This document shows, piece after piece, positions 3,558 to 43,410 of a stretch of 64,000 nt of DNA; position 1 is the stretch's first letter, and each line of letters begins with the position of its first letter. Position numbers and translations under genes: made by a program. The DNA is from Antedon mediterranea. Its lineage: Eukaryota > Echinodermata > Crinoidea > Comatulida > Antedonidae. The notes beneath the pieces are model-generated. The model saw nothing but the letters and a program-made list of their open reading frames with translations. It had not been told where the DNA came from and searched no databases. The stretch is taken from contig NC_092680.1 of the NCBI RefSeq assembly GCF_964355755.1, positions 9,895,001-9,959,000 on the forward strand. The letters are read 5' to 3'.

Positions 3558-6500
3558 ATGTGGTGTATTCGAGTTGCTCTACTTTCTATTTTGTTCCTGG
3601 TAGCTGTGAAAGGAGATTCAAGAACTATAAAAAACGACGAAAATACAATCAAGGCAGTTTCAAGGCCTGATGTAAACTTGGATGTGAAAGCAGACCTATC
3701 GAGTGTTAGCCCTCTAAGTGCTATCACATCAGATGAGACAGACAGAGTAAAATTACGTTGTCGTAGACGGAGGAGAGTACGTCGATGTCGTAGGCGACAC
3801 CGTCGTTGTGTAAGACGACGTTGTCGCCATTGCAAAAGACGACATAGACGTTGTCGGCGCTCTATAAGACGACGTTACCGTTGCAGAAGACGGCGTTGTA
3901 GGCGATACCGTCGACAATATCGTCGCTCGATTTGCCGACGACGACGCCGTTGCAGAAGACGATATAGACGCGTTCGTCGATGTATAAGACGGCGTAATCG
4001 TTCCAGAAGACGTCGCTGTAGGCGATACCATCGACGTTATCGTCGCTGTGTTAGGCAACGACGACGACGTCAACGCAGAATACAATATAGGCGTGTTCGT
4101 CGATGTATAAGACGGCGTTACCGACATCGTTGTAGGCGATACCATCGACGATATAGAGTTTATTGGCGTCACAATCGTTGCTATATGTTAGTCCACCGAG
4201 GCAGTTGCGTTCGTCGATACCGCATTAAATACAGGTACTATCGACATAAGTTATACATCTATTACAGGCGAAGATGGCGCTGTGTTCGACGATTTAAACG
4301 TAATGGAAGATGGTATACGTACTACAGAGGTCGTTACGTTATAAGACGTCGTTTTAGGAGATGCTACCGTAGAATTTATTGGTATAGAAACCGTTGTTAC
4401 CTGTTGATCCGATGTGGTCGTCACATTCGACGATATCGTCTTAGATACAGATACCGTCGCCACATATTGTATGTTTATTACAGAAGACGATGGCGCATTG
4501 TTCGACGTTATAGACGTCATGGGAAATGGTATACGTACTACAGAGGTCGATACGTTACCAGACGTCGTTTTAGGCGATGTTACCGTAGAATATATTGGCG
4601 CAAAAACCGTTGTTACCTGTTGATCCGATGTGGTCGTCACGTTCGACGATATCGTCTTAGATACAGATACCGTCGTCACATATTGTATGTTTATTACAGA
4701 AGACGATGGCGCATTGTTCGACGTTATAGACGTCATGGGAAATGGTATACGTACTACAGAGGTCGATACGTTACAAGACGTCGTTTTAGGCGATGTTACC
4801 GTAGAATATATTGGCGCGGAAACCGTTGTTACCTGTTGATCCGATGTGGTCGTCACGTTCGACGATATCGTCTTAGATACAGATACCGTCGCCACATATT
4901 GTATGTTTATTACAGAAGACGATGGCGCATTGTTCGACGTTATAGACGTCATGGGAAATGGTATACGTACTACAGAGGTCGATACGTTACAAGACGTCGT
5001 TTTAGGCGATGTTACCGTAGAATATATTGGCGCAAAAACCGTTGTTACCTGTTGATCCGATGTGGTCGTCACGTTCGAAGATATCGTCTTAGATACAGAT
5101 ACCGTCGCCACATATTGTATGTTTATTACAGAAGACGATGGCGCATTGTTCGACGTTATAGACGTCATGGGAAATGGTATACGTACTACAGAGGTCGATA
5201 CGTTACAAGACGTCGTTTTAAGAGATGTTACCGAAGAATATATTGGTACAGAAACCGTTGTTACCTGTTGATCCGATGTGGTCGTCACGTTCGACGATAT
5301 CGTCTTAGATACAGATACCGTCGCCACTTATTGTATGTTTATTACAGAAGACGATGGCGCATTGTTCGACGTTATAGACGTCATGGGAAATGGTATACGT
5401 ACTACAGAGGTCGATACGTTACAAGACGTCGTTTTAAGAGATGTTACCGAAGAATATATTGGTACAGAAACCGTTGTTACCTGTTGATCCGATATGGTCG
5501 TCACGTTCGACGATATCGTCTTAGATACAGATACCGTCGCCACTTATTGTATGTTTATTACAAAAGACGATGGCGCATTGTTCGACGTTACAGACGCAAT
5601 CGAATATTGTATATCCTATATCGAGGTCGATATGTTATTAAGCGATCTATACCGTCCCGTTCAATCAAAGTAGTACGGAAACACACTTACTATATGTGGA
5701 AACGAAACGTATTGTACCGTTGTACTAGACTTGGTCGCGTTTACCGTAGATACCGGGTCCGTTATCGATGGCGTAGTGGGCGACTGTTTGCATACATTCG
5801 ACGCAGATGGTGCATGGTTCGTAAATTTAATCAACATGGTGCACGCTATGCTTTCCGTGGAAGGCGATATGTAGTGAGTGGACACTGGCATCCAGGTTTT
5901 TATTTCTACTTCACACAGAATAAATTGTACATGCGTGTTCGCTGTGGCAGACTTCGCAATAAGTACCGCGTAAGATATAGATGGCGAGGTCAATCCTTAT
6001 ATTATTTTGACGGCGGTAGATGGCAATCTTTGTCTAAATACAGTCAATATGGCGCACGTTATAGATTTAATGGAAGACAATTTGTTATTAATGGTCACTG
6101 GCGTCCTCGATTTTATTTCTCTTGGAAGGGAACAAGCCTTTACTTGATGTTTCGCTGTGGTAGACAACTTGGAAAATATCGCGTAAGTTACAGATGGCGT
6201 GGACGCACTTTATATTACTTCGATAGCGGTAGATGGAGTGTAGTCCGTAAATATACGACTAACGGCATTAGTTATGTTTTCTCTGGTGGAAGATTTATTA
6301 CAAAATCGCGTTGCTCCCGTAAGTTCTACTTAAAAAATCGGCGACTTTATGTACGAATCCAATACGGAGGACGCGTTACTAGTTATGTAGTAAGTTTTAG
6401 GTATAGTGGTCGACGGTTGATGTATTGGTGGGGTGGCAGATGGTATACCGTTAGTAAATACAGCAAAAATGGTGTAATTTACTGCTATAGTAATGGTCGC

Positions 6501-6572
6501 TATACACAAAGCTCATCGAAGATCCATACTATTCATACATATACAACTCACTATACGCTAAACTTCAAATAA
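3558..6572 (+). CDS. Gene 1: secreted Arg/Tyr-rich repeat protein, 1004 aa, 11 modules
   Basis: I do not recognise this family. The start is the ATG at 3558, five bases after the TTACAG acceptor. The in-frame ATG at 3528 lies in the intron, and all paralogues start with MW[CW]. Residues 1-19 form a signal peptide (LLSILFLVAVKG, cleavage likely before DS). An acidic-leaning leader follows to about residue 67, then a Cys/Arg low-complexity domain to about 200. Then come 11 modules of 60-72 residues: seven very Arg-rich ones, encoded by a 216-bp tandem array (4161-5672), and four less extreme ones carrying the YRVRYRW, GRW and KY...G..Y.F.G signatures. The Ser/Thr tail is shortened compared with genes 2 and 3. 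One array module counts 28 Arg, 14 Tyr, 3 Cys and no Asp or Glu in 72 residues. A polyadenylation signal lies at 6665. The protein is predicted to be extracellular or granule-stored. Antimicrobial, adhesive, structural or polyanion-binding roles are possible; none is shown. Confidence 0.85.
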   Translation: MWCIRVALLSILFLVAVKGDSRTIKNDENTIKAVSRPDVNLDVKADLSSVSPLSAITSDETDRVKLRCRRRRRVRRCRRRHRRCVRRRCRHCKRRHRRCRRSIRRRYRCRRRRCRRYRRQYRRSICRRRRRCRRRYRRVRRCIRRRNRSRRRRCRRYHRRYRRCVRQRRRRQRRIQYRRVRRCIRRRYRHRCRRYHRRYRVYWRHNRCYMLVHRGSCVRRYRIKYRYYRHKLYIYYRRRWRCVRRFKRNGRWYTYYRGRYVIRRRFRRCYRRIYWYRNRCYLLIRCGRHIRRYRLRYRYRRHILYVYYRRRWRIVRRYRRHGKWYTYYRGRYVTRRRFRRCYRRIYWRKNRCYLLIRCGRHVRRYRLRYRYRRHILYVYYRRRWRIVRRYRRHGKWYTYYRGRYVTRRRFRRCYRRIYWRGNRCYLLIRCGRHVRRYRLRYRYRRHILYVYYRRRWRIVRRYRRHGKWYTYYRGRYVTRRRFRRCYRRIYWRKNRCYLLIRCGRHVRRYRLRYRYRRHILYVYYRRRWRIVRRYRRHGKWYTYYRGRYVTRRRFKRCYRRIYWYRNRCYLLIRCGRHVRRYRLRYRYRRHLLYVYYRRRWRIVRRYRRHGKWYTYYRGRYVTRRRFKRCYRRIYWYRNRCYLLIRYGRHVRRYRLRYRYRRHLLYVYYKRRWRIVRRYRRNRILYILYRGRYVIKRSIPSRSIKVVRKHTYYMWKRNVLYRCTRLGRVYRRYRVRYRWRSGRLFAYIRRRWCMVRKFNQHGARYAFRGRRYVVSGHWHPGFYFYFTQNKLYMRVRCGRLRNKYRVRYRWRGQSLYYFDGGRWQSLSKYSQYGARYRFNGRQFVINGHWRPRFYFSWKGTSLYLMFRCGRQLGKYRVSYRWRGRTLYYFDSGRWSVVRKYTTNGISYVFSGGRFITKSRCSRKFYLKNRRLYVRIQYGGRVTSYVVSFRYSGRRLMYWWGGRWYTVSKYSKNGVIYCYSNGRYTQSSSKIHTIHTYTTHYTLNFK
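4161..5672 (+). repeat. 216-bp in-frame tandem array, 7 units, within gene 1
   Basis: Units begin with TATTGG at 4161, 4377, 4593, 4809, 5025, 5241 and 5457, exactly 216 bases apart (72 codons). The inner units are almost identical at the DNA level, while the first and last are more diverged, as expected from unequal crossing-over or conversion. The Arg/Tyr codon composition leaves several other frames free of stops, which creates misleading open frames on both strands. Confidence 0.95.
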
Positions 6573-6670: not shown

Positions 6671-8732
6671 TTACAAACAATTTAAATATGTTTGTATTTT
6701 TTGTTTTGTTGTACACCTTACAGTTAACTTTCAGACATATTTTTTAAAATTCAACAATAATTATATAACTTGGAACCCCATTTTTTGACATCAAAGTTTA
6801 ACCAATTTTAATTTACGGAAGTGGGATATGGGCCTTTTCGAATTTATCACTAATTGATCATTTACATACACGTTTTTTAAGATTTATTTTAGGCATTGGA
6901 AACAGCGCACCCAGCGTGACTGTCAAATCAGAATTAGGCAGACTATCCGAGTCGGGTTGGTGAACATCAGTCCAAAATACGCAAATTTTTTTCCAAAATA
7001 CGTCAACTTGAGGGCGCTATACTAATCCAAAATACGCGAGTCTTTCCAAAATACGTCGACTTGAGGGCGTTATTCATTTTCCAAAATACGTGAATTGTCC
7101 AAAATACGTAAAATTGAGGGCGCTATTCATTTTCCAAAATACGCGATTTGTCCAAAATACGTCAATTTGGGACTGCTAGTAATTTTCCAAAATACGTCAA
7201 CTTGAGGGCGGCAAACTTGTTTCCAAAATACGAGAGCCTTTCCAAATGTATCATTGAGAGTGTAAGGTAAAATTACAATTTAATGTATTTCTTAGAATAA
7301 AACAAACAAGTACATTTTAGTTATAAATGAAATTATTGGAAGGCAGAATTTTTTGTAAATAAAATGTCATAGAGTAGCCAATTATTATTTTTCAATGTAA
7401 TCATTTATTACTGAATAAAAACAAATATGTGTGTCAATAGACACAGTGCCTATAATATACATTAATAATGTCTGAACGATGTACGATTGCATTGCCAGAC
7501 GTAGCTAGTTTAAATGAGGCATAAACCGGCTACAAAAACAGCATGTACAAGTATAGTCATAGGTGTGTGTTATATATTTGGTGATCTACAAAATTGATAT
7601 TTTTCCCGAGCTCGACAGACCAACATCGCTTTCAATTTAATGTACTTATGGTCTAATACAAGTTATCTAATCTGAATTCTAACACAATAGTTAGTTTATA
7701 TAATAAAAATAATAAAAAGGTATATGGTATTGTAATTAAAATAATATCAATAATTGGTTAGAAGAAGTAAAGTAATTATTTTTTGACACGAAAACGTCGG
7801 CAAAATACCCATAGTTAAAACAGTTAGTTAAAGTTCAAAATGGTTAGGTTAAAGATGTATTGTCCCCCAAAAAATGAAAAATAAAGATGAAAAAAATCAA
7901 ATTTTGAATAGACCGTTTTGTAGTTAACATAAAGTTATTCACTTCCACCGAAAAAAAATCCGAAAAAAATATTGATTTCGCTTATAAAAAAATCAAAATA
8001 AATTTACCATTTTTTCGAACTCATCGGCTCAGAAATTAGGCCGGTAGAGCTAACTCATACATATGCATGATATGTTAATGAGCATCCACACAGCAGAGAT
8101 CTGATCTATCTAACAATGGACGATGCACGTTGTATGGTACAACAACACCACCAGAGATCGACGCGACTGTGGGTTTCCCTGGGATGGCTGATCGTATAAA
8201 TATGTAAAGCTGAGCTGTTAATTTGTCGGTATGTAGGCCTAGACGGTTATTTTAAATATAATAATAGGATCAGGTGCCGTTTTCGGCCACCTCGACTTAT
8301 ATGGACTATACCATTATTATGGTAGGGGTGTGGTGTATTATGTTAGCTACTTAATCTTAGCTACATTCCGAAAATACAGCCAGCTTGCTGTACCATATAT
8401 ATTTACAGTTGAAGCTTGTTTAACTAATTTTTATGATAAAAATAAAACAAACATTTTTCAGGGAAAATGGTTGCAATACAAGCCTGAAATTGAGAACCTT
8501 CCAGCAGCACTGTACAAGTAGACAGAGGGGAAAAGCCAGCTTAGCCATTTTACAACACAAACAAATGTTCTCTGTACTGTAGTAAGTCAAATATTTATTT
8601 TCTATTTTTATAAGTTATAACATTATAAGTAATGTGTTTTAATTACCATAGAAAGGTAGTATACTTATTTGACTATGTCAAAGTAAGCAATTTCACTAGC
8701 CCAATTTTGCACTAAATATGCATGATCTACTC

Positions 8733-9069: not shown

Positions 9070-11228
9070 TGTAAATATATATAAATAAATAAATTATTTT
9101 ATTTTTTTAATATATTGATAACATCAAATAATACCTTATATAAAAAGAACTGCAACATGTGGAAAAAAAGATGGCAATCCACGAAAGGCAAGCCTGTGAT
9201 GTGGAAGCCCACACAATGAAGTAATAAATAAGTTAGACAGAACGACAAACACATAGGTACAGAACAAACTTACAGGACACGAATCACAACACAAACAGAC
9301 ATCAACAAACAGAACATGCACAGACACACCCGAACACACATCACCAGGGGAAAACATTAATATTTAGAAATGAGGAAAGATTTGAATGTTTTATTAAATA
9401 AAAATTTAGTAGCCGAATGTTTAATTTGAAAAGGAATTTTATTCCAATTCATGGGACCAGTATATCTGATTGAATGTTTAAAGGCAGTGAGTCTTGGTTT
9501 TGGCAAATGTAGGTCTTGTGCAATACGAGTATTATAATTATGAACTTCGTGATTAAATTTGAAGAGATGAGATGAAGGAGAATCAGCTGTCAAAGAGTCA
9601 TAAATAAATGACATTTGTTGAAAAAGATTGATATCAGCTAATTTAAGAAAATTATGTACGGAAAAAATAGGGGAAGTATGAGAAAGACGATTCGAATGGG
9701 TAATAAGCCTAATGGCCTTTTTTTGTAAAATAATAAGTCTATCAATAGATGTCTTGTAATTATTAGCCCAAACAATATTGCAATAATTTAGGTAGGGCAA
9801 AATAAGAGAGCAATATAATAAACGCAAAATTGTTAAAGGGATATAGTGAGAAAGCCTATAGATAATTCCTATATTTTTTGAAACCTTCGAAGCAACCGAA
9901 TCAATATGACATTTCCATGTTAATTTAGAGTCAAGGAAAACTCCAAGAAACTGGACGGTATCAGTGAGCGGAATATTAATATTATTTAACAAAATTAAGT
10001 TATTTCCAAGAATGAAGGATTTGTTAGGACTGTGAAAAATAATAGCACTGCATTTTTTAAAGTTTACCGAAAGTTTATTAGCTGAAAAATATTTTAAAAC
10101 AGACTTAAGTTCGTTGTTAACAACATCAAATAGTGTATTAATGTCACTATGCGAATATAAAATAGTGGTGTCATCAGCATATAAGAAAGACGAGAGAATG
10201 GAGGAATTATAAAAATCATTAATATAAATTATGAATAATAGAGGGCCAAGCAATGACCCTTGTGGAACGCCACACGAGATGGACCGGAAATCCGATGTAT
10301 TATTATTGAATTTTGTGCACTGAGTGCGGTCAAGAAGATAGCTCTTGAATAAATCAAGTGCAATCCCTCTAACGCCATAGTGAGAAAGCTTAGATAACAA
10401 GATGTTGTGGTCAATGGTGTCAAAAGCTTTCGATAAATCAATCAAAATTTCCATGGATAATTTATTTTCTTCAAAAGCATCTAAAATATAGTTAGTCAGC
10501 TCAATAAGTGCCATTGAGGTGGAGTAGCATTTTCTAAATCCAAACTGATGCTGAAAGAGGACATTATTCTTTTGAAGAAAGGAATAAGTTCGATCATATA
10601 TAATGCGTTCAAATAATTTCGAAAAAATAGAGAGAATAGAAATAGGGCGGTAGTTGCTGATTTCAGAGGTGTTACCGGATTTAAAGACGGGAGTTACAAT
10701 AGCGCGCTTTAATTTGTCTGGAAAAATACCGCATGAAATCGAAGAATTAAAGATATGACAAAGGGGTTTGAAAATAAAATATGCAGATTGTTTAATAACA
10801 AAAGTATTAAATCCATCTAAACCAGGAGCTTTGTTGTTGCCAAATGAGGAAATAATTTTGAGAATTTCATTTTCATCAACTGGGTTTATAAATAGAGACT
10901 GCGCAACGGAATTGGGTAAATAGTCAGTAATACTAATATTGCGATCATGTGGAATTTTACTGGCAAGTGTGGGTCCAATGTCAACAAAAAAGTCATTGAA
11001 GCTATTAGCAATAATCTTTGGATCGCTAGTTAAGGTACCATTACAATTAATACGTTTTACATTGTTGCTTTTGCTGGGAGTAGTATGAAGTACATTTCTA
11101 ATTGTAGACCAAGTTTTTTTAATATTGTGTTGATGTTTGGTGAAGAGCTTAAGAAAGTAATCAGATTTTGAAGAGCGAATTATAGTAATGAGCAAATTAC
11201 GATATTGTTTAAACATCGTTTCATTCTA
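9070..11228 (-). mobile_element. Non-LTR retrotransposon with reverse transcriptase (Jockey/CR1-like), 5' truncated
   Basis: The open frame 9357-11216 (619 codons) encodes an almost intact reverse transcriptase: NNKAPGLDG, NYRPISILS, the LIDLSKAFDTIDH block, GVPQGSLLGPLLF and the catalytic YADDT, then the usual thumb and C-terminal region. The upstream apurinic-type endonuclease and ORF1 are absent, and a stop lies just upstream of the first Met. The 3' UTR follows to an ATTT-rich tail near 9070-9100. The element lies inside the inverted-repeat element 6954-13229. It looks recent, since its frame is open, but cannot be autonomous as seen. Confidence 0.85.
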
Positions 11229-17640: not shown

Positions 17641-18074
17641 AAAAATGACTATTAAGCTGTACAATTGGCATTGCTATCATGGATTTCTGAAAATTAGACA
17701 TTTTAGGCTTTCCGAAAATGTATGGTAGCATTTGCCATCAATTTGATACCGAAAAAATGTCTGGCCCATGGACTAATAATTCATTTATTGTAAATCAGTA
17801 TCAAGACAGTTTCGTCAAGCTGTCTCAATACTAATCGAAACCACAGTAAAATGTTTTCACTAATGATTAGACTTTTCTTTGTTGGATGTCATTGGTGTAA
17901 GTGACGTCAAACACGAAAATCACATTTTTAAATTGACTGAAAACAGTTAACGACCATTTTTGTGTAAATTTAACTTTGAATGAACAGTGAATTCATGCAA
18001 TTTTGAGCTGTCAGACAAGAGATACAGATTTAAATTAAATAGATTATTTATTATATAATACCTAGATCAAAAGT

Positions 18075-18170
18075 GGATTTTTTAACATCCAACATATATA
18101 AACACTTTACATTGAGAGTACTTGATGGTACTTTATACAAGCACATCAACAACTGAAAAGCTATTTAAAA
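18075..18170 (+). promoter_or_regulatory. Promoter remnant of the broken family member
   Basis: AACATCC.A.ATATATAAACACTT followed by ATTGAGAGTACTTGATGG and TACTTT (box 18111-18134) matches the promoter of gene 2 at 32130-32185. The TATA position reads AAAGCTATTTAAAA and appears decayed. It lies about 4.5 kb upstream of the pseudogene coding exon at 22636, so the old intron would be long and now holds several insertions. Confidence 0.55.
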
Positions 18171-21960: not shown

Positions 21961-22661
21961 TGTTCGAGAAGATATTCAAAGATCCCAAGCACCTCTACTT
22001 AATAAAGACAGTATTAATAATTTTTGACATTGTAGACTTTCTCCAGACACCATTTCATTTTCATAATGTTTTGATTGTTAACAACAAAAAATGTTATTTC
22101 AGATGGCTTCATTGGTAAACTTATAACTATGTTACAGAATAACATCAATATAAATATAAAGATGTCAAGTTACTAAGACTAGTTATTAGTTATTAGTTAT
22201 TTATACCAAAGGGTAAACTAATCTATGCATCTCTGTATTAAGTCAGATAATACAAGAAACAAGCAAAAATGTTTTAAAAATTCTATATTAAGATTGTTTC
22301 GCAGTGTTTTATTTTATGTAACGGCCTAGCGATGACGTTTAATCAAGTGCGTATTACCCTACCTATGATATTTAGGTCCAACTGTTATATAAAGAACAAA
22401 ATTATTAAGAGCTAGGCCTAAATTTGTTATTCTTAAGAGGTCGGAACGAGAGTGGTTATATTTCTAGCTGCATTTTTGCCTTCACCCGATGGCATATATA
22501 GATAACTTATTTTGGAATATGACGAGCATGTTAAGTTAATTTTTTCTATTCGTGGAACGTTTCACTAAACACATAAAACACAAGTTTTTATGTTTTCTTT
22601 CAATTCTTTACTTTGTGTTCTCTTTCAACAGAATCATGTGGTGGGTTCGAGTTGTTCTCTT

Positions 22662-24097
22662 TACTTAGGTGATATACTGGACGCAGGACTAAAGTCCTCT
22701 ATATCCAGATCCAATTGGTCCAATCCTGGTATTTTGAATCCTTAACTTGTGATCGTATATTACTAGTTGATTCCGCCAGAATTTGTCCAGACTTTCTTTA
22801 AACTGTTTAGTGAGGTTGCTGTCACAACATGTTCCGGTAATGCATTCCAATTATCGGTTATACAGTTACTAAAGGAAAATTTCCTTTTATCCAAATGGGA
22901 AACTTTCTTAGCTAGCTTAAGAGAGAGCCTCCGTGTTCTATTAGATACATTTAGTTTTAGGAAATCAGATACTGATTTATCATAATAGCCATTTAGAATT
23001 TTGAAAGTTTCAATCATGTCATTACGACAGAGGTGTGTTAGAACCAATGATCAGACCGTTTTTCCTAAATTATTTAAGTCTATCATTAGGCCTGTAATTG
23101 AATACGCTTCACCTGTCTGGTTTCCATTTCTGCAAAGCACCATCAATCAGATTGAATCTGTTCAGAGACGCTTTACACGATCATGCTTCCCACGTTTTTT
23201 TCACATGGATTATGACATGCGGCCGTCATACGAACGAAGGTTACGGACTCTAAAATTACCCACGATTTATAATAGACTTAAATTCATCCGTGTTAAATTT
23301 GTTGTGAAGTGCCTCTGTACAGATTTCCTAATTGATGGTGCTTTGCTACCTAAACCTGTTGAACGTAGAAGTGAGAAACTTGTTTTCAGACATGAGAAGT
23401 CTCGTACTAATGCTTTTTTTTATTCTGTTTTTATTTCATTTCCACGGATGTGGGATGAGATTCCGGTATATATAACAGACATGTTTATTTATAATGATTG
23501 CAATTTTTATTCTGTTTTATATAGATTCTATGTTACCGGGTTGTTAAATGTTTATCCTTGTTAATGTTATTTTGCCACCAGCACTATCAGGAGAGTCTTT
23601 TATAGCGATATTTTTTTGCTTTTTGACAATCCGCCAGGATAGTGTTCTGCGCTTTTTCTCTGCTTGTTGTTGTTCTATGTTATATATGCTTTTTGTATTG
23701 TTTTTGTATTATTTTTTCTGGATAATAAATGAATATGAATATGAATATGAATACGACATCTTCTATAGACCAAAGTAGGCAGTTTTAAAGCTCTTAATCT
23801 GTCTGAATAATTAAGCCCCTTAAGGTTAGGGATCAAACGTGTAGCTCTAGGTTGAACACTTTCTAGAAGATCTATATGTTTCTCTAAATATGGACACCAC
23901 ACAGAAACCTATAGCCTATTTGCCTTGTTGACCATCTCTGTTATATGCATTTCAAATGATAATTTACTATCTATTATAATTCCTAGGTCTTTCTCATGGT
24001 CGACATGTAGGAGATTTTCAGTATTACTATCTGGGTCCAATGAATACTCATATTGAATGTGTGTTGCATTCCTTCTTCTTAATTCCAAAACCTTACA
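22662..24097 (-). mobile_element. Outer non-LTR retrotransposon fragment inserted in the pseudogene signal peptide
   Basis: Minus-strand reading in order: KDLGIIIDSKLSFEMHI (about 23970-24000), YLEKHIDLLESVQPRATRLI, SDRLRALKLPTLVYRRCR, then after an interruption NDMIETFKILNGYYD and NWNALPEHVV. This is the C-terminal third of a CR1/Jockey-like reverse transcriptase. The possible target duplication is TCTCTT (22656-22661) against TCTGTT (24098-24103), with one mismatch. The 5' part is missing. Confidence 0.75.
23030..23751 (+). mobile_element. Inner non-LTR retrotransposon fragment with (GAATAT)n tail
   Basis: The plus-strand reading from 23046 contains PKLFKSIIRPVIEYASPVWF, IESVQRRFTRSCFP, RRLRTLKLPTIYNRLKFI and a tail to 23564. 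This is the C-terminus of a second CR1-like reverse transcriptase. The 3' end is AATAAATGAATATGAATATG. The flanks carry the identical 7-mer TACGACA (23023-23029 and 23752-23758), a target duplication. Removing the insert restores the outer element's reading YRRCR-NDMIETF. Confidence 0.85.
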
Positions 24098-25499
24098 TCT
24101 GTTGTCTGTCTTGTTCTTGGTAGCTGTAAAAGGAGATTCAGAAGCTGTCAAAACCGAAGAAAATGAAATTACTTCAGTTTCACGACCTGACGTATCGAAT
24201 GCGTTATCAGCGTAGCCGGCGATATCAAATACAATGTTATTTGGATATCCGACGCGGGCGTATTGTTGTACATCGAAGTTGTGTTGTTACAGGTATCGTA
24301 GCCACGTGTTACATGTGTACTCTGGACACAAACAAATGGAGCATTGTTCGACGCTACAGACGCAATTGAAAAGTGTATATTTTATATCGAGGTCGCAACC
24401 AACCTCACGAAATTTGGGGTGAATATAACTTGTACGGCCAACTACTGTAAAATAAAACGTTTCAAATGCAGTTTAACGATTGATGTACAAAATAATCTTC
24501 CTCGAGTTCTCCATCCTATCATGATGAACTTCGCAGTCTCACCATAGTTCGAGTTTATGTGAGAGACTTTTTAGGTACCAGAAACACTTACATGCCAAAT
24601 TAGTAACATGTTGAATAAAGTCGACTGGTTCCAAAAAATATTAAGTTTTGAATTTTACTAATTGTTTATAATATAATCACATATTTTAAATTAACCTGTG
24701 TGACGTTTCGTGTACAGCCTGTCGACTATTCAAGCTAATGCATAAGAAAACAGAAATCACAACATCAATATAAACTGTGCATGTTGTACACGTTTGCAGG
24801 ACATACTCAATCATTAGCAACAACGGTAGGCCTACTGACGACAAACATTAGTTTAAAGAAGCCAACCGCTGGTCGACGAAAAGTAATTTTGATTTAACAA
24901 AAAAGTAAAACAATCGCCCCTGGTTGAAAAAAATTTACAAAATAAAGCACACGATCAATGATATAAGAAAAAGTAAGAAAGAAAACACCATGTGAGTAAG
25001 CCTAATCAATAGGCATTATTTCGAACATGCAAACGTAGGCCTACTGTAATGCTGTACCTTCAATCTACCAATTAATACTGTCTGCTTCTTTCCTTGATAT
25101 ACCAACATAATAGACTAGACCACTTGGCTTTAATCTAATAAATTTGTTTGACCAAGCAATAGAAGCAGAGTCGGTTAATGCTGATAAAGTACAATAGTAA
25201 AGTAACAATATTATATAACCTAAAGAATGAAATAAAGGAAAGAATCCTTCAATCCCATTAGACCTTTACAAAGATGACACCATAGGTCTATGATACGGTG
25301 TCAATAATAAGCAAGCACAGGTTCCAAAGTTAGTTAAATATCTCCTCATCGTTACCGTTTCTCATGTTCGAGTTTCGGTTGGGCTGACTTTTTCTCATTC
25401 TCCTAGATTTCCTTATCTTATCGTTTCAAATTAATTTAATAAAGTTCAGTATATCACTGGGCGGTTTAGAATTAATGTTCTTTTGTCTGTTGTCTGTAT

Positions 25500-29817: not shown

Positions 29818-29888
29818 GTCTCTGGCGGGATTCGAACCTGAAACCTCTCGCTTACAGGGCGAGTATCATACCACTAGACCACAGAGCC
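29818..29888 (-). tRNA. tRNA-like sequence, anticodon TGT by position; possible pseudogene or SINE head
   Basis: On minus, GGCTCTG begins a 71-base sequence with A- and B-box-like segments (GGTCTAGTGG, GGTTCGAATCC), an anticodon stem CTCGC/GCGAG and a TTTTTT run directly after the 3' end. The acceptor stem has one mismatch and the T stem two. The base before the anticodon is C rather than the invariant T. It resembles a tRNA-Pro body with an altered anticodon loop, so it may not be functional. Confidence 0.45.
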
Positions 29889-31259
29889 ATATATGGTATT
29901 ATCACAGATTTTCACCCACCAGATAGATTCTCTCATACAACAAACGCCCTGACAATCAGTGGAGGCTTAACAAGTCAGAATAAATTATAATTGGTCATTT
30001 AGAACTTTGACCCCTTTCTCTCGAAAACTCTTTTTATCCTGATCGAAGTCTGATTTGATTAAATACAGTATTATAATTATATTATTCAAAATTATATTGA
30101 AATAACATAACTTTACTGATTAAATAATTTGATTACTTGTAAAACCATCGATATTATCACTTTGCATTTATTTGGTACCGGTAACTACGCATAGTAAAAT
30201 GTTGACCTTTTGCCTTATGTCAACTGATGGAATGATGTATTCGCTCTTTTACATTGTGTATGATTAACAGGATGAGAAAACATCAACATTTTTGTTAATT
30301 ACTTTTATATTTGGTTTTATAGGTAGGTTCTATGATTGGTCAATATTGACATTTGACCCTTATTCACAAAGGATCTTTTTCATAAGGTGATTGAATAGAT
30401 ACATAATAATACTAAAATGTAATAAAAGACCAAATTGTGCTTCAATATAAATTTTGTTATAATACATATACATAGTACATTGTTGTTGTAATACGGTCAA
30501 TTTTTAGTCGCGTGGAAGCGACTCTATAGTTCACTATGTCGGTCCGTCGGTCTGTCGGTCTGTCGGTCTGTCTGTCGGTCCGGTATCACTATGCGTTTTT
30601 TCGCTTTCTGACCTTATCTTGATATCAGTTTAATCTAGCTAAGTCAATTTTTCACAGTATATTCCTTATGGCCCAGGAATCGATGTGGTTATGTTTTCAC
30701 GGTGCGCAATAAAAAATTACGCGGTCTACGCACGATTTAACGAAATCACGTTTGTAATCATATCTTTTAATTAAATAAAATTTGGTACTCATAAATTTCA
30801 GGGCATAAATCATCATATGGCAATACAATTACGTGCGTAGTGCATGTAACGCATGCGTACGCGCGCTTAACATTTTCAAAATTTATTTTCGATGAAATAA
30901 TAGTACGTTTCAGGCAATTTTAAGCGTTTAAAAAATTGCCATGAGTGCGCAGATGTTTGCGCGCGCACTGCGCGTTAAATATTATTGCGCACTCTTTTTG
31001 CCCGATTTCTGTTTTCTTGACTTACTTTTCAACTCAAAATTACGTTATACGAGCACGTCAAAAGTGACAGGCTACGCACGTGTAAATTAAAAATATATAT
31101 ATAATATAACTGTTTTTAAACATTTCAACATTTTTAAACATGTTCAGTAATTTCGGTCAGTTGGTAGGTTGGTCGGTCGGTCGGTAAACACTAAGCACGC
31201 GACTGCAGCCATCTATATGGCTTTGTTAACTTTGACTTCTTATATCTCAAAAACGCTTC

Positions 31260-31720: not shown

Positions 31721-32156
31721 TTCGATTCAAATGGCAACCAAAAAAGGTTAATACGTATTTACAATATTGTCAAAGTATTGCAATACTATCAGTTGTATGT
31801 TTATTCTCCAAGGGCCCATACATTTACCTACTTGTGTTAAACCAAGGGCTCATTAATTTACCTACAAACTGGGAGTCTGAGAGATTGGAATGTTCTATTC
31901 ATCGCAAATCAAAACATTTGTATAAACGTATATTAAATATATCAAAATAGTATTTTTTTAAGAAAACTGGACTGTCTTCAACATTATGATATTGTACTCG
32001 AGCTGTTCAACCGGTTTTCAGCTATTAAAAACAATTATCTAATTATTATTATTATTATATCTAATCTGCAGACAGTACTGTTTCGATCTTATTAGATCTC
32101 GATATTAACTGAGATTAAAAGTGCATTTTGAACATCCAAAATATATAAACACTTAG

Positions 32157-32241
32157 CACTGAGAATACTTGATACTTAGTACTTCAAATAACTGATGGCA
32201 CCAGCACATTCATTAAGAGTCTGTTAGAAAGCTATACAAAA
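32157..32241 (+). promoter_or_regulatory. Promoter of gene 2
   Basis: The family box is present as CACTGAGAATACTTGATACT with TAGTACTTC (32157-32184), followed by GGCACCAGCACATT (32197-32210) and a TATA-like TATACAAAA at 32233-32241. The sequence upstream (AACATCCAAAATATATAAAC) matches the pseudogene promoter at 18085-18105, which pairs these two as closest relatives. Confidence 0.6.
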
Positions 32242-32264
32242 GGAAGATCACAAACTCACAACCT

Positions 32265-32341
32265 CCAATTCCTGTTTGTAGTCCGAGTAGGCGCGCCTGC
32301 AAATTATTTTACAATAGTTTCTGTGCACGTTCTTTGTTGGG
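32265..32341 (+). other. Non-coding first exon of gene 2 (approximate 5' end)
   Basis: It ends at a GG|GTAAGT donor (32342). The intron is only 227 bases, with the acceptor TTTCAACAG ending at 32568, four bases before the start codon at 32573. The 5' end is inferred from TATA spacing. Confidence 0.5.
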
Positions 32342-32572
32342 GTAAGTGACATTAGTGTATTTTTAGCGTAGAGAATTAGTGCGAGTGTAAGTCAAGGAGC
32401 AAGTTTTATAGTTTTAATATACAGTAGTTTTAAAATAGGTCTTCTGGAATACAACGAGCGTGTTACGTTATTTACATATTTTTCTGTTCGTGGAACGTTT
32501 CACTAAACACATAAAACAAAAGTTTCTATGTTTTTTTCAATTCTTTACTTTTTGTCGTCTTTCAACAGAATC

Positions 32573-33601
32573 ATGTGGTGGGTTCGAGTTGTTCTGTTAT
32601 CTGTATTGTTCTTGGTAGCTGTGAAAGGAGATTCAGAATCTGTCAAAACCGAAGAAAGTGGAATCACAACAGTTTCACGACCTGATATCAACTTAGATGT
32701 AAAAACGGACTCATCGATTGTTAGTCCCCAAAATATTATCACATCAAATGCAACATCGGATAAAGTAAAGTTATGCTGTAGACGGAGACGGCGGCGGTGC
32801 TGTCGCCGCAGGAGACGATGCTGTCGAAGACGTTGCCGTTGCAGAAGACGTCGACGTTGCCGATGCAGAAGACGACGTTACCGTTGCAGAAGACGTCGAC
32901 GTTGCCGCTGCAGAAGAAGACGTTACCGTTGCCGAAGACGTCGACGTGTCCGATGCAGAAGAAGACGTTACCGTTGTCGAAAACGTCGACGTTTCCGATG
33001 CAAAAGACGACGTTACCGTTGCAGAAGACGAAGACGGGGAACTAGACCTATCACTCGTCCAATCAGAAGATTACCAACCAACATTTACTATACGTTTAGC
33101 CAAAACACATTGTACTGTAATACCGGACGGGGCAGTAAATTCCGCGTACGTTATAGATGGGGTAGTGGACGATTGTTTGCATACGTTCAAGGAAGATGGC
33201 AATTGGTGCGTAAATATGGTCAATATGGCGCAAAGTATACATTTAATGGAAGCCAATTTGTTATTAGTGGTCACTGGCGTCCTGTTTTTTATTTCTCTTG
33301 GAAGGGAAGAGTGCTCTATTTAAGATTTCGCTGTGGGAGACAAGTTGGCCATTATCACGTACGTTACAGATGGCGTGGACGCACTTTATACTACTTCGAT
33401 GGTGGTAGATGGTTTACTGTTAGTAAATACAGTAAAGATGGTGTAGTTTACTGCTATAGTAATGGTCGCTATGCGCAAAATCCTTCGTCATCATCATCGT
33501 CGTCATCGACCCAAACTTACACAACATATACCAATAACGATTCCAATCCTGTAGTCACTACTACCACCACCACCACTAAACGTGAATACGTCCCTGAATA
33601 G
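32573..33601 (+). CDS. Gene 2: secreted Arg/Tyr-rich repeat protein, 342 aa, 2 modules
   Basis: This is the shortest and simplest member of the unrecognised family, and it shows the basic plan. The start MWWVRVVLLSVLFLVAVKG is a clear signal peptide, with cleavage likely before DSES. The leader up to KVKLCC (about residue 65) is acidic, with EESG and several Asp. A Cys/Arg domain of about 75 residues follows, built on a 14-residue period with RCRRRRYRC cores. After a TRPITRPIRR linker there are two modules carrying RVRYRW, GRLFAYV.GRW, LVRKYGQYG and GRTLYYFDGGRW. The tail is Ser-, then Thr-rich and ends KREYVPE. An ATG 45 bases upstream lies in the intron. The best polyadenylation signal is at 33706. 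Its role is unknown; an acidic leader before a basic mature part is a layout also known in stored cationic peptides. Confidence 0.85.
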   Translation: MWWVRVVLLSVLFLVAVKGDSESVKTEESGITTVSRPDINLDVKTDSSIVSPQNIITSNATSDKVKLCCRRRRRRCCRRRRRCCRRRCRCRRRRRCRCRRRRYRCRRRRRCRCRRRRYRCRRRRRVRCRRRRYRCRKRRRFRCKRRRYRCRRRRRGTRPITRPIRRLPTNIYYTFSQNTLYCNTGRGSKFRVRYRWGSGRLFAYVQGRWQLVRKYGQYGAKYTFNGSQFVISGHWRPVFYFSWKGRVLYLRFRCGRQVGHYHVRYRWRGRTLYYFDGGRWFTVSKYSKDGVVYCYSNGRYAQNPSSSSSSSSTQTYTTYTNNDSNPVVTTTTTTTKREYVPE

Positions 33602-37680: not shown

Positions 37681-38280
37681 GGCATAGATTACTCACATGA
37701 TTATACCATGGATATATTTAGAGGTCTATGATTAGACTAAAAAAAACGTTTTATCTGTGGTCTAAATGAATTAGAAAAATAATAAATAAATAACTTTCAA
37801 TTGGTCGCGTCCGGCGATTATCTGTTTTTATATTACTATTGTTCTCTTATGCTCATGTTTTTTGTAAAACACCATTATCCATAAATGTGATACATTTGCT
37901 ATTAGTTTTATATGGTAATTTTAAGTTTAATATAATATCATGTGTATCATGGGGTCATTCACACCAATCGTTTATGTATCATCATTTTCTATGACTATAA
38001 ATAAAATGTGATGGTACCGTATAGAAATAAGATAAAAAAAAACATAAATAAAATGAACTCTGAACTAATCATGAACCGCCAAAAGTATATAATACTAGAC
38101 AACATATCGATTGGGATAGTGATTTATCATTTATAATAACAATGACAGATTGGATCCGTGTATCATGCACTGACATGGGCTACATACAGTAACAGTAACA
38201 TTTCTTTTTGCAATTTGTAATTTTTATCTTTTATTTTAAAATGTGTGGAGAAACTAATAAAACAAACAAACAAAACAAAC

Positions 38281-38960
38281 ATTATTACTGAGAGGGCTAT
38301 CATACATGATAGGGCTACATACAGTAACAGTAACATTATTACTGAGAGGGCTATCATACATGATAGGGCTACATACAATAACAGTAACATTATTACTGAG
38401 AGGGCTATCATACATGATAGGGCTACATACAGTAACAGTAACATTATTACTGAGAGGGCTATCATACATGATAGGGCTACATACAATAACAGTAACATTA
38501 TTACTGAGAGGGCTATCATACATGATAGGGCTACATACAATAACAGTAACATTATTACTGAGAGGACTATCATACATGATAGGGCTACATACAATAACAG
38601 TAACATTATTACTGAGAGGGTTATCATACATGATAGGGCTACATACAATTACAGTAACATTATTACTGAGAGGGCTATCATACATGATAGGGCTACATAC
38701 AATAACAGTAACATTATTACTGAGAGGGCTATCATACATGATAGGGCTACATACAATAACAGTAACATTATTACTGAGAGGGCTATCATACATGATAGGG
38801 CTACATACAGTAACAGTAACATTATTACTGAGAGGGCTATCATACATGATAGGGCTACATACAATAACAGTAACATTATTACTGAGAGGGCTATCATACA
38901 TGATAGGGCTACATACAGTAACAGTAACATTATTACTGAGAGGGCTATCATACATGATGG
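38281..38960. repeat. 54-bp minisatellite, 12 full units plus a partial one
   Basis: Units starting ATTATTACTGAGAGGGCTAT repeat every 54 bases from 38281 to 38928 and differ at only a few positions (ACAGTAAC or ACAATAAC). Each unit holds the small palindrome CTATCAT.AC.ATGATAG. As 54 is divisible by three, several frames stay open on both strands without meaning. A diverged unit precedes the array at 38171-38199. The array resumes beyond the element that follows (40152-40205). Confidence 0.95.
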
Positions 38961-40151
38961 CAGTGGCCCGCCCCCCCCCCCCCCCTGATTTCGTTTCCGT
39001 CGGCACACAAAGGTGCCGGGGAAAAAAATAAACTATTTATTCTGACAATAATTGAACTGTAAACATAATTCTTTTTGAGTGTTTGTTTATTTACATATCA
39101 TATCATTGATCCCTTCAGATCAACTATTTTTTATTTTCATTACATCTAACGAAACACGTTAAAAATGTGTAGCACGTACGTACGGCCGTATGCGGTAGAT
39201 TGTTTACTCAAAACCTTGTTTTTGCATGCAGTTGAGCCTCTCATGACCTGAGATTTGTATGTCTTCCTACGCTAAGAGATTATATAGTTCCACATGCCAT
39301 GTGTTTTTTGTCTAAGATATATTTATTATAAGTGCCAAAAACCCGGGTTTTTTTCTCGATTTGAGGCCTTTATTTATTCAAAATTTTTAAAGAAAAAGCA
39401 CATATACCATAAGAAATATCCATGTATTTCATTTTTGGAACAGAATATTCCGTGAGGCTCAACTACAAAACCACCATTTTGTGATATGATGTCATCGTAA
39501 GCCAATCAAAGCTGAGCTTTCTCGCGATTGGCATTGCTCACGGTTGAATGATTTAGGATTCTAGCTGATTTGATTGGTGGATGCGAATCACCCGCAGCGG
39601 AATGTTTTCTCTCGCGCGTGTACCATGAATCTCTCTGATCGTTTACTACACAAAGTTAGAGCAATGAATTTGTCCGAATTCCGTTAAGTAAACAACTTTA
39701 TATATTTTATAAGCATTTAATAACATGTTTTATTGATATTTCCAATGGTGATATATATAATAAATTACTAAAAAACGTAATTATATGTAATTATTTTAAC
39801 CAAAAATGGCGTAGTTAATAGAATTGTCGACTGAGGCCGCAAATTGTTTTACTTCTTTCGTGGCTAAAAACGATCATTTTCGGTGATGTTTTAGACCCTA
39901 TATTTCGAAAACTACAAGTCAGATTTTCCTAATTCTTTCTTTATTGTAATATGAATACAACATACTAACAGATAATGTTGGTTTGGTTTTAATTTTGCAT
40001 CGTTATCCCATATAAGACAATATGACTATGTAATCCTAGAACATATATTGATCAGAGACGTCGTGTATGTACAGAATGACACCAATTTTGTCGGCAAATT
40101 GGCAATTCCCGCCCCCCCCCCCCCAACTTCAAAATCCTGGATACGCCACTG
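38961..40151. mobile_element. Non-autonomous hAT-like element inserted in the minisatellite
   Basis: The element starts CAGTGGC and ends GCCACTG, with poly(C) runs just inside both ends. It is flanked by CATGATGG (38953-38960) and CATGATAG (40152-40159), an 8-bp target duplication with one change, as for hAT transposons. The minisatellite unit continues correctly across the insertion. The 1191-base interior has no transposase. The right end (TGGCGTATCCAGG on minus) resembles common animal hAT-type ends. Confidence 0.8.
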
Positions 40152-40700
40152 CATGATAGGGCTACATACAATAACAGCAACATTATTACTGAGAGGGCTT
40201 TCATAACTAAATGAAAACGAAATAAATAAAACAAATTCATAATTATACCGTACGCAAAGCAAGTCCGAAACAAGCGGAGGTCTAATTGCTTTTTTAGAGA
40301 GCGTCCGTTGCCACCTCTCTACACATTAAGCACACCATTTTGTAAGCTTACACCCTTATGTGTGCAGTTGCAAATTGACTGCGGTCATCCTATCAATTAA
40401 CTTCTTGAATGCGACTATATCTTAACATACACGTAACCTAAGATATTGATATACATTTCATTAACGGATATGATAATATTATATTATACACTTTACTAGA
40501 ATATGAATCAGGCTATCACTGTGGAACGTCTATGCATCATAAGTGATTTTGTATATAGGCCTACCGTATAAGTTTGTTATTTATATTAAAACAAAATTTA
40601 CAATAGAAAAGAATGAAAAACACATAAAATGAAACAAATGTACTATTGTTTAAGAAAATCATGTGCATTTTTTTATATAAAAAAATGGAAAATACTTCAC

Positions 40701-40782
40701 ATTGAGGGTGCTTGATGGTACTTTCAAAGTCTGACGGGACCAGTACATGTTAACATTGATTTACAGAGGAAAAACTATAAAA
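40701..40782 (+). promoter_or_regulatory. Promoter of gene 3
   Basis: The family box is ATTGAGGGTGCTTGATGG with TACTTT (40701-40724), then GGGACCAGTACATG (40736-40749), then TATAAAA at 40776-40782 followed by GAAAGATCACAG. The last word is shared with gene 2 (GGAAGATCACA). It is the best preserved promoter of the set. Confidence 0.65.
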
Positions 40783-40807
40783 GAAAGATCACAGGTTCAC
40801 CATAATC

Positions 40808-40875
40808 AGTTGCAGTTTTGGAGACTCATTAAGTCGACCTGAATAAGCAAAAAACTTATTTCAGTAGTTGTTCAG
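40808..40875 (+). other. Non-coding first exon of gene 3 (approximate 5' end)
   Basis: It ends TTCAG|GTAAG at 40875/40876, the same donor as gene 1. The intron is 428 bases, with acceptor TTTCAACAG ending at 41303. Confidence 0.5.
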
Positions 40876-41307
40876 GTAAGGGCAAAGGGAAGGTTCGTAC
40901 TTAGTTATTTAACTGGCTAAGTTTGACTTGATGTCGCTAACTTTGGTGGGTACCAACTCACCCGGGAATGCCGGTCGGAATAAATAACTAAGATGTCCTT
41001 ATAGTGTGTAACAGTGTAATTGTAGGTAGAGTTAGGTGCATTTTGAAATCTGTTGAATAAACATGGAGGAGCAAATAACATTGATCCCTGTATCTGCACA
41101 TGTGAGAATTCTGATGTTATAGTAAATGTAGGCCTATTACATTGAATAAGAAATCTTTCACTGTTTTAAATAGAAAGATAGCTTTCTCTTGCATGCGGTG
41201 GTTAGAATATGTCGAGACACGTTATTTTCTTTCTTACTTGGTTTTGTAACCACATAACTTTTGTAACCAATTCCTATGTCTTACTTTTTGTTGTTTTCAA
41301 CAGAACC

Positions 41308-43410
41308 ATGTGGTGTGTTCGAGTTGCTCTACTTTCTATCTTGTTCCTGGTAGCTGTGAAAGGAGATTCAGGAACTATCGAAAACGAGGAAAATGCAATC
41401 AAGGAAGTTTCAAGGCCTGAAGTAAACTTGGATATAAAGGCAGACGTAACGAGTGTTAGCCCTCAAGATGCTATCACATCAGTTGAGACAGACAAAGTAA
41501 AGTTATGCTGTAGACGGAGGAGGGTACGACGATGCTGTCGCTGCAGGAGCAGACGATGCAGTCGAAGACGTGGCCGTCACTGCATAAGACGGCGTTACCG
41601 TTGCAGACGACGACGTTACCGTTGTCGAAGAAAACGTTACCGCTGTCGAAGAAGACGTTACCGTTGCAGAAGACGACGTTACCGCTGCCAAGGACGACGA
41701 TTCCGTTTCATAAAACGACGTTACCGTTGCAAAAGGCGACGTGTCCGTAACAGAATGCGTCGGTACACTACAATATTATGGCGGAAAAACCGTTTGGTTA
41801 TGCAGATAATACAAGGAAATAGAATGAGTCGAATTCCTCTTAGATACCAATATTTTAACCGAAAGTTATATGCTTACTATGGAGGAAAATGGCAAATTGT
41901 TCGGCGCTACAAACGCGATGGGATATTGTTTATTTTATATGGAGGTCGGTATGTTAATTCGCGACGACTTAGATTTACATCCCGCCCAATCAAACGAGTG
42001 CCGACCTCCACCTACTATAGGTTTATTAAAAACACATTGTACTATAATATCAGACGGGGTCGTGATTTCCGTAAATACCGAGTACGTTATAGATGGCGTA
42101 GAGGACGGTTGTTTGCATACGTTCAACGGAGATGGCGTTTCGTACGTAAATACGGTCAATACGGCACAAAGTATAGATTTAGTGGTAGTCAATATGTTGC
42201 CACTGGTCACTGGCGTTCGAGTCTGTATTTCTTCTGGAAGGGAAGAGTCCTTTATTTAGGAATCCGCCGCAGTGGACGGCAGCGTTTTGTAAAAGAGGAA
42301 TACCGCGTACGTTACAGATGGCGTGGACGCACTTTATATTACTTCGATAGCGGTAGGTGGAGTGTAGTTCGTAAATATACAATTAACGGCATTAGTTATG
42401 TTTTCTCTGGTGGAAGATTTATTACAAAATCGCGTTGCTCCCGTGTTTTCTACTTTAAAAACCTGCGACTTTATGTACGGATCCGATACGGAGGACGCGT
42501 TACTAGTTATGTAGTAAGTTTTAGGTATAGTGGTCGACGGTTGATGTATTGGTGGGGTGGCAGATGGTATACCGTCCGACGATATAGACGCAATGGCCGA
42601 TGGTACATAATTTATAGAGGCCAGTATGTCATTAAGCGACCTAGGCCTAGACCTATCATCTGTCCAATCAAAAGAGTGCCGACCAGCACTCACTATACGT
42701 TTGATAAAAACACACTGTACTATAATATTAGACGGGGTCGCGATTTCCGTAAATACCGCGTACGTTATAGATGGCGTAGAGGACGGTTGTTTGCGTACGT
42801 TCAACGAAGATGGCAATTGGTGCGTAAATATGGTCAATATGGCGCAAAGTATACATTTAATGGAAGACGATTTGTTATTAGTGGTCACTGGCGTCCTCGA
42901 TTTTATTTCTCTTGGAAGGGAACAAGCCTTTACTTGATGTTCCGCTGTGGTAGACAGTTTGGAAAATATCGCGTACGTTACAGATTGCGTGGACGCACTT
43001 TATATTACTTCGACAGCGGTAGATGGAGTGTAGTCCGTAAATATACAATTAACGGCATTAGTTACGTTTTCTCTGGTGGAAGATTTATTACAAAATCGCG
43101 TTGCTCCCGTGTTTTCTACTTCAAAAATCGGCGACTTTATGTACGGATCCGATACGGAGGACGCGTTACTAGTTATGTAGTAAGTTTTAGGTATAGTGGT
43201 CGACGATTGATGTATTGGTGGGGTGGCAGATGGTATACAGTTAGTAAATACAATAGAAATGGTGTAATTTACTGCTATAGTAATGGTCACTATTCGCAAA
43301 GTTCTTCTTCGTCATCTTCGACGACCCACATTTACACAACATACACTAAATACTCTAAACCTCAAGTCACTACTACTACGACTACTAGACGCGAGTACGT
43401 CTCTGGATAG
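41308..43410 (+). CDS. Gene 3: secreted Arg/Tyr-rich repeat protein, 700 aa, 7 modules
   Basis: This is an unrecognised family member; the start MWCVRVALLSILFLVAVKG is nearly identical to gene 1. An ATG at 41209 lies in the intron. A leader rich in Glu and Asp (ENEENAI, LDIKADV) leads to KVKLCC. The Cys/Arg domain that follows contains a heptad repeat YRCRRRR (21-bp DNA period, about 41590-41700). Seven modules follow. Modules 2-4 and 5-7 are a duplicated triplet: each begins P-T-S-T-x-Y, continues RRGRDFRKYRVRYRWRRGRL and closes with VVSFRYSGRRLMYWWGGRW. The end is Ser-rich, then Thr-rich, ending RREYVSG like gene 2. The polyadenylation signal is at 43486. The mature part is strongly basic and aromatic, with few Cys in the modules. 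It is a secreted protein of unknown role. Confidence 0.85.
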   Translation: MWCVRVALLSILFLVAVKGDSGTIENEENAIKEVSRPEVNLDIKADVTSVSPQDAITSVETDKVKLCCRRRRVRRCCRCRSRRCSRRRGRHCIRRRYRCRRRRYRCRRKRYRCRRRRYRCRRRRYRCQGRRFRFIKRRYRCKRRRVRNRMRRYTTILWRKNRLVMQIIQGNRMSRIPLRYQYFNRKLYAYYGGKWQIVRRYKRDGILFILYGGRYVNSRRLRFTSRPIKRVPTSTYYRFIKNTLYYNIRRGRDFRKYRVRYRWRRGRLFAYVQRRWRFVRKYGQYGTKYRFSGSQYVATGHWRSSLYFFWKGRVLYLGIRRSGRQRFVKEEYRVRYRWRGRTLYYFDSGRWSVVRKYTINGISYVFSGGRFITKSRCSRVFYFKNLRLYVRIRYGGRVTSYVVSFRYSGRRLMYWWGGRWYTVRRYRRNGRWYIIYRGQYVIKRPRPRPIICPIKRVPTSTHYTFDKNTLYYNIRRGRDFRKYRVRYRWRRGRLFAYVQRRWQLVRKYGQYGAKYTFNGRRFVISGHWRPRFYFSWKGTSLYLMFRCGRQFGKYRVRYRLRGRTLYYFDSGRWSVVRKYTINGISYVFSGGRFITKSRCSRVFYFKNRRLYVRIRYGGRVTSYVVSFRYSGRRLMYWWGGRWYTVSKYNRNGVIYCYSNGHYSQSSSSSSSTTHIYTTYTKYSKPQVTTTTTTRREYVSG

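Follow-up and report, generated by a model that had tools for sequence, protein, structure and literature searches.

A 64,000-nucleotide stretch of the genome of the crinoid Antedon mediterranea (contig NC_092680.1, positions 9,895,001 to 9,959,000; here called the window) raises the question of what a group of long, arginine-rich open reading frames (ORFs) encodes and what the products might do. A sequence-only reading had described three intact plus-strand genes and one broken copy as an undescribed tandem family of secreted, modular proteins. Three long ORFs on the plus strand, which span 3525-6572, 32507-33601, and 41206-43410 when read from stop to stop, are referred to here as genes A, C, and D; we recovered the broken copy, B, by its homology to C. 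From a common MW... start, A, C, and D encode 1004, 342, and 700 residues, respectively. A protein type that has a signal peptide, one-third Arg over 1004 residues, few or no acidic residues per module, and a confidently modeled beta fold lies far outside ordinary animal proteins. We tentatively propose, at odds somewhat short of even, that its repeat represents a previously unnamed animal domain: a module of ~70 residues with about four beta-hairpins, chained into a continuous array with one arginine side. The proteins would then make up a new secreted polycationic repeat class, with in-frame recombination between modules adjusting their length.

Architecture and composition of the proteins

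The three coding exons have the following parts.

3558..6572, plus strand: gene A coding exon, 1004 amino acids; signal peptide, leader, Cys/Arg domain, 11 modules, and a short diverged tail
3753..4145, plus strand: gene A Cys/Arg domain, 131 amino acids, 62% Arg, 15 Cys
4146..6524, plus strand: gene A modules A1-A11
32573..33601, plus strand: gene C coding exon, 342 amino acids; signal peptide, leader, Cys/Arg domain, 2 modules, and a Ser/Thr tail
32771-33055, plus strand: gene C Cys/Arg domain, 66% Arg, 18 Cys
33083-33283 and 33284-33493, plus strand: gene C modules C1 and C2
41308..43410, plus strand: gene D coding exon, 700 amino acids; signal peptide, leader, Cys/Arg domain, 7 modules, and a Ser/Thr tail
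41503-41766, plus strand: gene D Cys/Arg domain, 57% Arg, 13 Cys
41767-43317, plus strand: the 7 modules of gene D

By inspection, A, C, and D begin with similar signal sequences of the type MW.VRV.LLS.LFLVAVKG, as had been proposed. A leader of ~48 residues separates the signal sequence from the Cys/Arg domain in each protein. The leader had been called acidic but is only weakly so, with D+E minus K+R equal to 1 in A, 3 in C, and 6 in D over 48 residues. The predicted Cys/Arg domain was found in all three proteins (57-66% Arg). The Ser/Thr tail said to be usual is present in C and D; that of A is short and diverged.

We searched the proteins with a module profile built from four seed modules. 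Twenty of the 26 matches, scoring 52-106, are modules (11 in A, 2 in C, and 7 in D), in agreement with the numbers given by the sequence-only reading; the other 6 lie within the Cys/Arg domains and score below zero. That reading was also right that the module is repeated, but with the boundaries set in this analysis its length is 67-75 residues rather than 60-72. Across the 16 non-redundant modules, alignment columns Gly 19, Leu 39, and Trp 47 never vary, and a single module departs from the consensus at each of Arg 46, Val 50, Gly 57, and Tyr 60.

Arg makes up 32.7% of A, 25.4% of C, and 22.6% of D, and the computed net charges at pH 7 are approximately +356, +88, and +174. Across the three proteins, Tyr accounts for 7-15% of residues, Gly for 5.0-7.6%, and His for 0.9-3.4%; RGD is absent from all of them. 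Each module contains 0-3 acidic residues. Module A3 has 28 Arg, 13 Tyr, and no acidic residue in 70 residues, and the next two residues are Cys-Tyr; with these it fits the 216-bp repeat unit described below and reproduces an earlier hand count of 28 Arg and 14 Tyr, with no acidic residue, in 72. We scanned 403 stop-free 100-codon windows (six frames, step 10) for Arg. The richest contain 64 Arg in A, 66 in C, and 52 in D, and the maximum outside the gene spans is 15; hence, we dismissed chance as the source of the composition.

The module frame is conserved

For a 558-bp module stretch aligned between A and D (88.7% identity), the ratio of nonsynonymous to synonymous change (dN/dS) in the predicted frame is 0.41, with no stops. 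The other five frames give ratios of 0.55-1.69 and contain 5-41 stops, which rules out translation of the modules in another frame. All 19 module pairs compared (hand-chosen from 190 possible) gave dN/dS values below 1, with a range of 0.17-0.85; the highest values were for A11-D4 (0.85) and for D4-D7 and C1-D5 (0.66 each). We concluded from these alignments that the module frame is under purifying selection.

The Cys/Arg domains were compared by codon. Aligned Arg-Arg pairs number 47 for A-D, 46 for C-D, and 54 for A-C, of which 16, 11, and 22, respectively, differ as CGN versus AGR; a further 13, 14, and 17 positions are Arg on one side alone. These codon-box switches are supportive but not proof, since CGA-AGA and CGG-AGG are one step each. 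A simple-repeat artifact was ruled out by the constraint on the module frame, the Arg codon switches, and the composition scan taken together.

Predicted fold of the modules

AlphaFold2 models of C1-C2 (predicted local distance difference test score [pLDDT], 87.5; predicted template modeling score [pTM], 0.74; 11 alignment rows) and of D5-D7 (pLDDT, 90.6; pTM, 0.79; 12 alignment rows) are both all-beta, consistent with the common beta-rich fold that the sequence-only reading had envisaged. Each predicted module has eight short beta-strands, or nine in D7, and helix is nearly absent. Of the 153 strand residues of D5-D7, 116 conform to a pattern of one hydrophobic and one polar side, compared with 100.9 +/- 3.8 after within-strand shuffling (0 of 5000 shuffles reached 116). 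Arg is the commonest residue of the polar side (20 residues), followed by Ser (12), Lys (8), and Tyr (8); the hydrophobic side holds 6 Arg. An alternation of basic residues is seen in A8-A11, C, and D (z = 2.6 at lag 2 and -2.8 at lag 1). From strand order and pTM, we infer about four hairpins per module. The same evidence suggests that successive modules keep the same placement relative to each other and build a single array, aromatic/aliphatic on one side and Arg/Lys/Ser/Thr on the other. Should the models prove correct, the proteins would exemplify how nature builds a folded beta-array of very high charge, and they would inform polyanion binding, underwater adhesion, or microbe killing.

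Foldseek found no global superposition of either model on solved structures. Its best rows for both models came from kelch, glucan-binding, CROP, and fucose-lectin structures, with an expect (E) value of 4.7e-4 in one case; a kelch protein ranked first for the two-module model (E = 0.008; template modeling score, 0.16).

Module arrays appear to have been reshuffled by recombination

Gene A contains a 216-bp tandem array at 4260-5596 (6.2 copies, 96% matches), and gene D shows internal repeats spaced 678 and 666 bp apart, forming two a-b-c triplets. We compared nucleotide identity over four segments per module. A10 groups with D6 and D3, A11 with D7 and the front of D4, and C1 with D5 and D2. 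The first two segments of C2 are closest to A10 (75% and 94%, the latter tied with D3), and its last two are closest to A11 (88%) and D7 (87%). Similarly, the front of D4 is closest to D7 (95%) and A11 (100%), and for its rear the best matches are just 67% (A11 and A1), followed by A7; hence, the rear of D4 would derive from another module type. C2 and D4 thus look chimeric. In-frame unequal recombination within modules would explain the chimeras, the 216-bp array, and the triplets of D. The broken copy, the 216-bp array, and the chimeric modules together make the cluster a concise example of how repeat proteins evolve through unequal recombination.

Upstream blocks suggest two-exon genes

Blocks of similarity lie upstream of all four copies.

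538..625, plus strand: putative non-coding exon 1 of gene A, with a TATA-like box at 544-552; candidate donor CAG/GTAAGT after 625
18055..18170, plus strand: upstream block of copy B, with a TATA-like box at 18161-18170
32102..32341, plus strand: upstream block of gene C, with a TATA-like box at 32232-32241 and a putative non-coding exon 1; candidate donor GGG/GTAAGT after 32341
40663..40875, plus strand: upstream block of gene D, with a TATA-like box at 40775-40783 and a putative non-coding exon 1; candidate donor CAG/GTAAGG after 40875

Similarity is strongest between B (18055-18126) and C (32102-32173), at 84% (E = 3e-13), followed by B and D (76%, E = 4e-8), C and D (63%, E = 4e-4), and A (538-599) and D (40769-40832) (72%, E = 0.003). 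All four copies thus have a related upstream block with a TATA-like box, and the GTAAG donor motifs of A, C, and D lie 82-110 bases past the start of the box. None of the donor patterns GGTAAG, GTAAGT, and GTGAGT occurs at 18150-18500 of copy B. In all four copies, a candidate acceptor (...CAG) lies four bases 5' of the ATG, ending at 3553 in A, 22631 in B, 32568 in C, and 41303 in D. Homology between A and D begins at 3550/41300, coinciding with the candidate acceptor. Such a break is not seen in every pair, since homology extends 5' as far as 3504 between A and C and as far as 22510/32442 between B and C. An AATAAA lies 76-105 bases past each intact stop (A, 6665; C, 33706; D, 43486 and 43496). 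On the basis of these upstream blocks, candidate donors and acceptors, and poly(A) signals, A, C, and D appear to be two-exon genes whose first exon is non-coding. The position of the candidate acceptor would therefore place the signal peptide in exon 2. The upstream block common to all copies, the candidate splice site ahead of the ATG, and the apparently chimeric modules go beyond the sequence-only reading.

A 54-bp tandem repeat lies upstream of gene D at 38278-38958 (12.6 copies, 98% matches), and pieces of its unit recur at ~40150-40250, as judged by eye from the ORF list.

Copy B is in three parts.

22510..22661, plus strand: 5' piece with the intron end, candidate acceptor, ATG at 22636, and first codons; 87% identity to 32442-32598 (E = 6e-44)
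22662..24097, no strand assigned: insert of ~1.4 kb inside the signal peptide
24098..24396, plus strand: 3' piece with the remaining signal peptide and the leader to 24194, then a module remnant at 24217-24396

Homology to C stops at 22661 and restarts at 24098. There is no Cys/Arg domain, and a stop lies inside the module remnant. We concluded from this arrangement that copy B is a pseudogene. The insert has an ORF at 22989-23564 that resembles a retroelement fragment by eye and has no Pfam match.

Searches for relatives

We scanned the whole proteins against Pfam to an E value of 1 and five module stretches to an E value of 10, with HMMER filters dropping most rows above ~0.1. No match above threshold was found in Pfam, NCBIfam, PHROG, or PDB-sequence families. 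The sub-threshold rows included TgpA_N (E = 0.0046; 16.4 bits against a cutoff of 30) and GAFP-1 (E = 0.16). Since only sub-threshold rows were obtained, we rejected membership in a known family of these libraries, and no confident match to a known domain surfaced. The Pfam scans of A, C, and D gave no BRICHOS match at E values up to 1, no defensin domain in proteins or module stretches, and, over the same two sets, no match to kelch repeats or to cell-wall-, choline-, or glucan-binding repeats. A phage search with the D protein gave no match, and none of the 60 and 30 pattern matches from a prokaryote-genome and viral-contig search with the A3 module-pair alignment was confirmed by tblastn.

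The only relative recovered from a protein database was the 342-residue protein of gene C itself (3960 candidates scored). Another protein-database search found none among 5977 candidates and also missed gene D. As a control, the reverse transcriptase of the window matched 7856 of 7995 candidates at an E value of 1e-10. The absence of relatives in protein databases is weak evidence, because the search missed even gene D. None of the papers listed by searches of an open-access library described a matching family; motif strings retrieved no paper, sequence motifs being rare in running text. We concluded that the family has no name in the libraries searched, as the sequence-only reading had supposed; "undescribed" here refers to family libraries and the open-access literature, not to animal sequence databases.

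Possible functions

A secreted, amphipathic, strongly cationic beta protein with a Cys/Arg region is most simply read as a multivalent binder and crosslinker of polyanions or surfaces. The Arg side and the Cys/Arg domain would bind polyanions (sulfated glycans, acidic proteins, or nucleic acid) or charged surfaces at many sites at once, and Cys, perhaps with Tyr, would crosslink chains. Chains so crosslinked would make the secreted product a cohesive adhesive or an extracellular matrix component. The number of repeats (2, 7, or 11) would set avidity and length. This use in adhesion or matrix is our first choice, ahead of defense, although we hold it with less than even confidence. In its favor we count the protein plan and composition, the constraint on the module frame, the retention of Arg across codon switches, the two-sided strands and confident models, the Ser/Thr tails of C and D, the many Cys, and the chimeric modules with the 216-bp array.

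The barnacle cement protein CP-20k has, to our knowledge, no comparable Arg content or module. Sections of PMC12472103 on adhesive proteins allow comparison by description only. There, CP-20k resembles the proteins reported here in its folded beta-strand-rich regions, its 12 Cys, and the basic residues near its turns. Flatworm adhesive proteins are likewise reported to be repetitive, with Lys-Arg-rich regions (PMC12472103), and Cuvierian tubule adhesive proteins are likewise predicted to be cross-beta; the same sections state that the four named Cuvierian tubule proteins have no orthologues.

Several points weigh against adhesive or matrix use of a folded array. In the same sections of PMC12472103, the flatworm adhesive is low in Tyr, compared with 7-15% here, and the Cuvierian tubule adhesive is acidic, whereas the present proteins are extremely basic. 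Furin-type motifs (RX[KR]R) number 46 in A, 25 in C, and 17 in D, so the chain might be cut up and not act whole. Cationic amphipathic beta-hairpins describe antimicrobial peptides equally well. The alignments behind the two structural models have 11-12 rows drawn from a single family, and AlphaFold2 is at times overconfident on repeats. The strand sides were defined by hydrophobicity itself, and the shuffle is therefore the sole control of their two-sidedness. No alternation of basic residues is seen in A1-A7, the modules richest in Arg (lag 2, z = -0.7). In the leader stretch (coding-exon bases 1-168), dN/dS between A and D is 1.21 in the predicted frame, a value based on 17 differences (3.5 synonymous and 13.5 nonsynonymous). 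The other five frames are lower there (0.29-0.95), with 1-11 stops. Thus, translation in the predicted frame is well founded for the modules, but in the leader stretch it is favored by the absence of stops and not by dN/dS.

The main rival, and our second choice, is a host-defense family, which we consider possible but rather unlikely. The proteins, or hairpins excised from them, would kill or agglutinate microbes through their anionic envelopes, like SpTransformer (Sp185/333) proteins and arenicins. The mature protein encoded by SpTransformer, a family of sea urchin immune genes, is Gly- and His-rich, and its leader lies in exon 1. Compared by description rather than by homology, the proteins of the cluster differ in being Arg/Tyr/Trp-rich, in a signal peptide that would lie in exon 2, behind an apparently non-coding exon 1, and in having repeats that are predicted to fold as beta-structure. 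All 20 modules lie in the last exon of A, C, and D, and this arrangement of clustered two-exon genes (exon 1 being inferred here) with repeats in the second exon, stated for SpTransformer in passages of PMC5491942, speaks for defense. So do the clustering with a pseudogene, the RX[KR]R motifs, and the unconstrained leader stretch.

Arenicin hairpins, from polychaetes, are cationic and rich in Arg, Tyr, Val, and Trp, and the Arg/Tyr/Trp/Val strands of the modules resemble them. In the relevant parts of PMC9410094, furin activation is proposed for arenicin relatives, and the peptides are single, short, and C-terminal in a BRICHOS precursor, whereas here the strands are repeated along a long protein. 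The Pfam scans showed neither a BRICHOS nor a defensin domain in that protein. The conserved Gly, Trp, Leu, and Tyr positions and the confident multi-module models suggest a folded array, not releasable peptides, and the leader is too weakly acidic to neutralize the cation.

An improbable alternative is a lectin-like or cell-wall-binding hairpin repeat whose aromatic side would recognize carbohydrate, in the way of bacterial glucan-binding and related repeats. Bacterial cell-wall- and glucan-binding repeats have short strands, Tyr-Tyr-Phe, and Gly turns. The modules resemble them in these features, and such structures, with kelch, CROP, and fucose-lectin, were among the top Foldseek rows (one at E = 4.7e-4). 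The modules differ in their Arg-rich surface, the lack of a profile match, and the lack of a global superposition.

Improbable too, and ranked just behind, is a gamete protein of the acrosome or egg coat that binds sulfated egg-jelly glycans and has its repeats shuffled by recombination. A signal peptide, a cationic chain, recombining repeats, and unequal repeat numbers between neighbors would all suit such a protein. The finding of dN/dS below 1 in every module pair tested, and the lack of a match to a named domain, argue against it.

We consider it very unlikely that the proteins serve to pack secretory granules or, like protamines, act as condensing agents that compact acidic cargo. The charge of A (~+356) and the protamine-like composition of the Arg/Cys domain would fit. 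Protamines and other sperm nuclear basic proteins are nuclear and lack a signal peptide, whereas A, C, and D begin with one by inspection, and the modules look folded rather than like a disordered polycation.

That the Arg-rich frame is non-coding, a product of simple CGN/AGA repeats, is scarcely credible: several segments are tandem repeats at the DNA level and the leader stretch shows no frame-specific constraint, but the frames are stop-free over 1004, 342, and 700 codons, the module frame is constrained, Arg codon boxes differ, and splice and poly(A) signals are common to the genes.

Surroundings of the cluster

Exons of the following genes lie next to the cluster and point to nuclear DNA of a eukaryote.

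45032-47000, minus strand: exons of FBPase (fructose-1,6-bisphosphatase), adjoining the cluster
53871-54356, plus strand: exon of an S19-family ribosomal protein, presumably RPS15
58618-58863, minus strand: exon of a 20-kDa complex I subunit, which we take to be NDUFS7

Three of 10 window ORFs scanned have retroelement-type domains (RVT_1, zf-RVT, and GIY-YIG). A reverse transcriptase ORF of 622 amino acids (9357-11225, minus strand) lies in a region flanked by inverted repeats at 6954-7210 and 12973-13229, which are 257 nucleotides long, 95% complementary, 5.8 kb apart, and composed mostly of 53-bp tandem units. At 25902-30607, several nested inverted-repeat segments surround a GIY-YIG fragment (26144-26548, minus strand), which we assume may belong to a Penelope-like element. 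A foldback-type element at 47245-48234 has inverted repeats of 60-144 nucleotides (77-97% complementary), and each of its ends carries 10-bp tandem units. A tRNA-Thr was called at 29816-29889 by both ARAGORN and Rfam, and two tRNA-Val genes were called by ARAGORN alone at 55810-55882 and 56083-56157.

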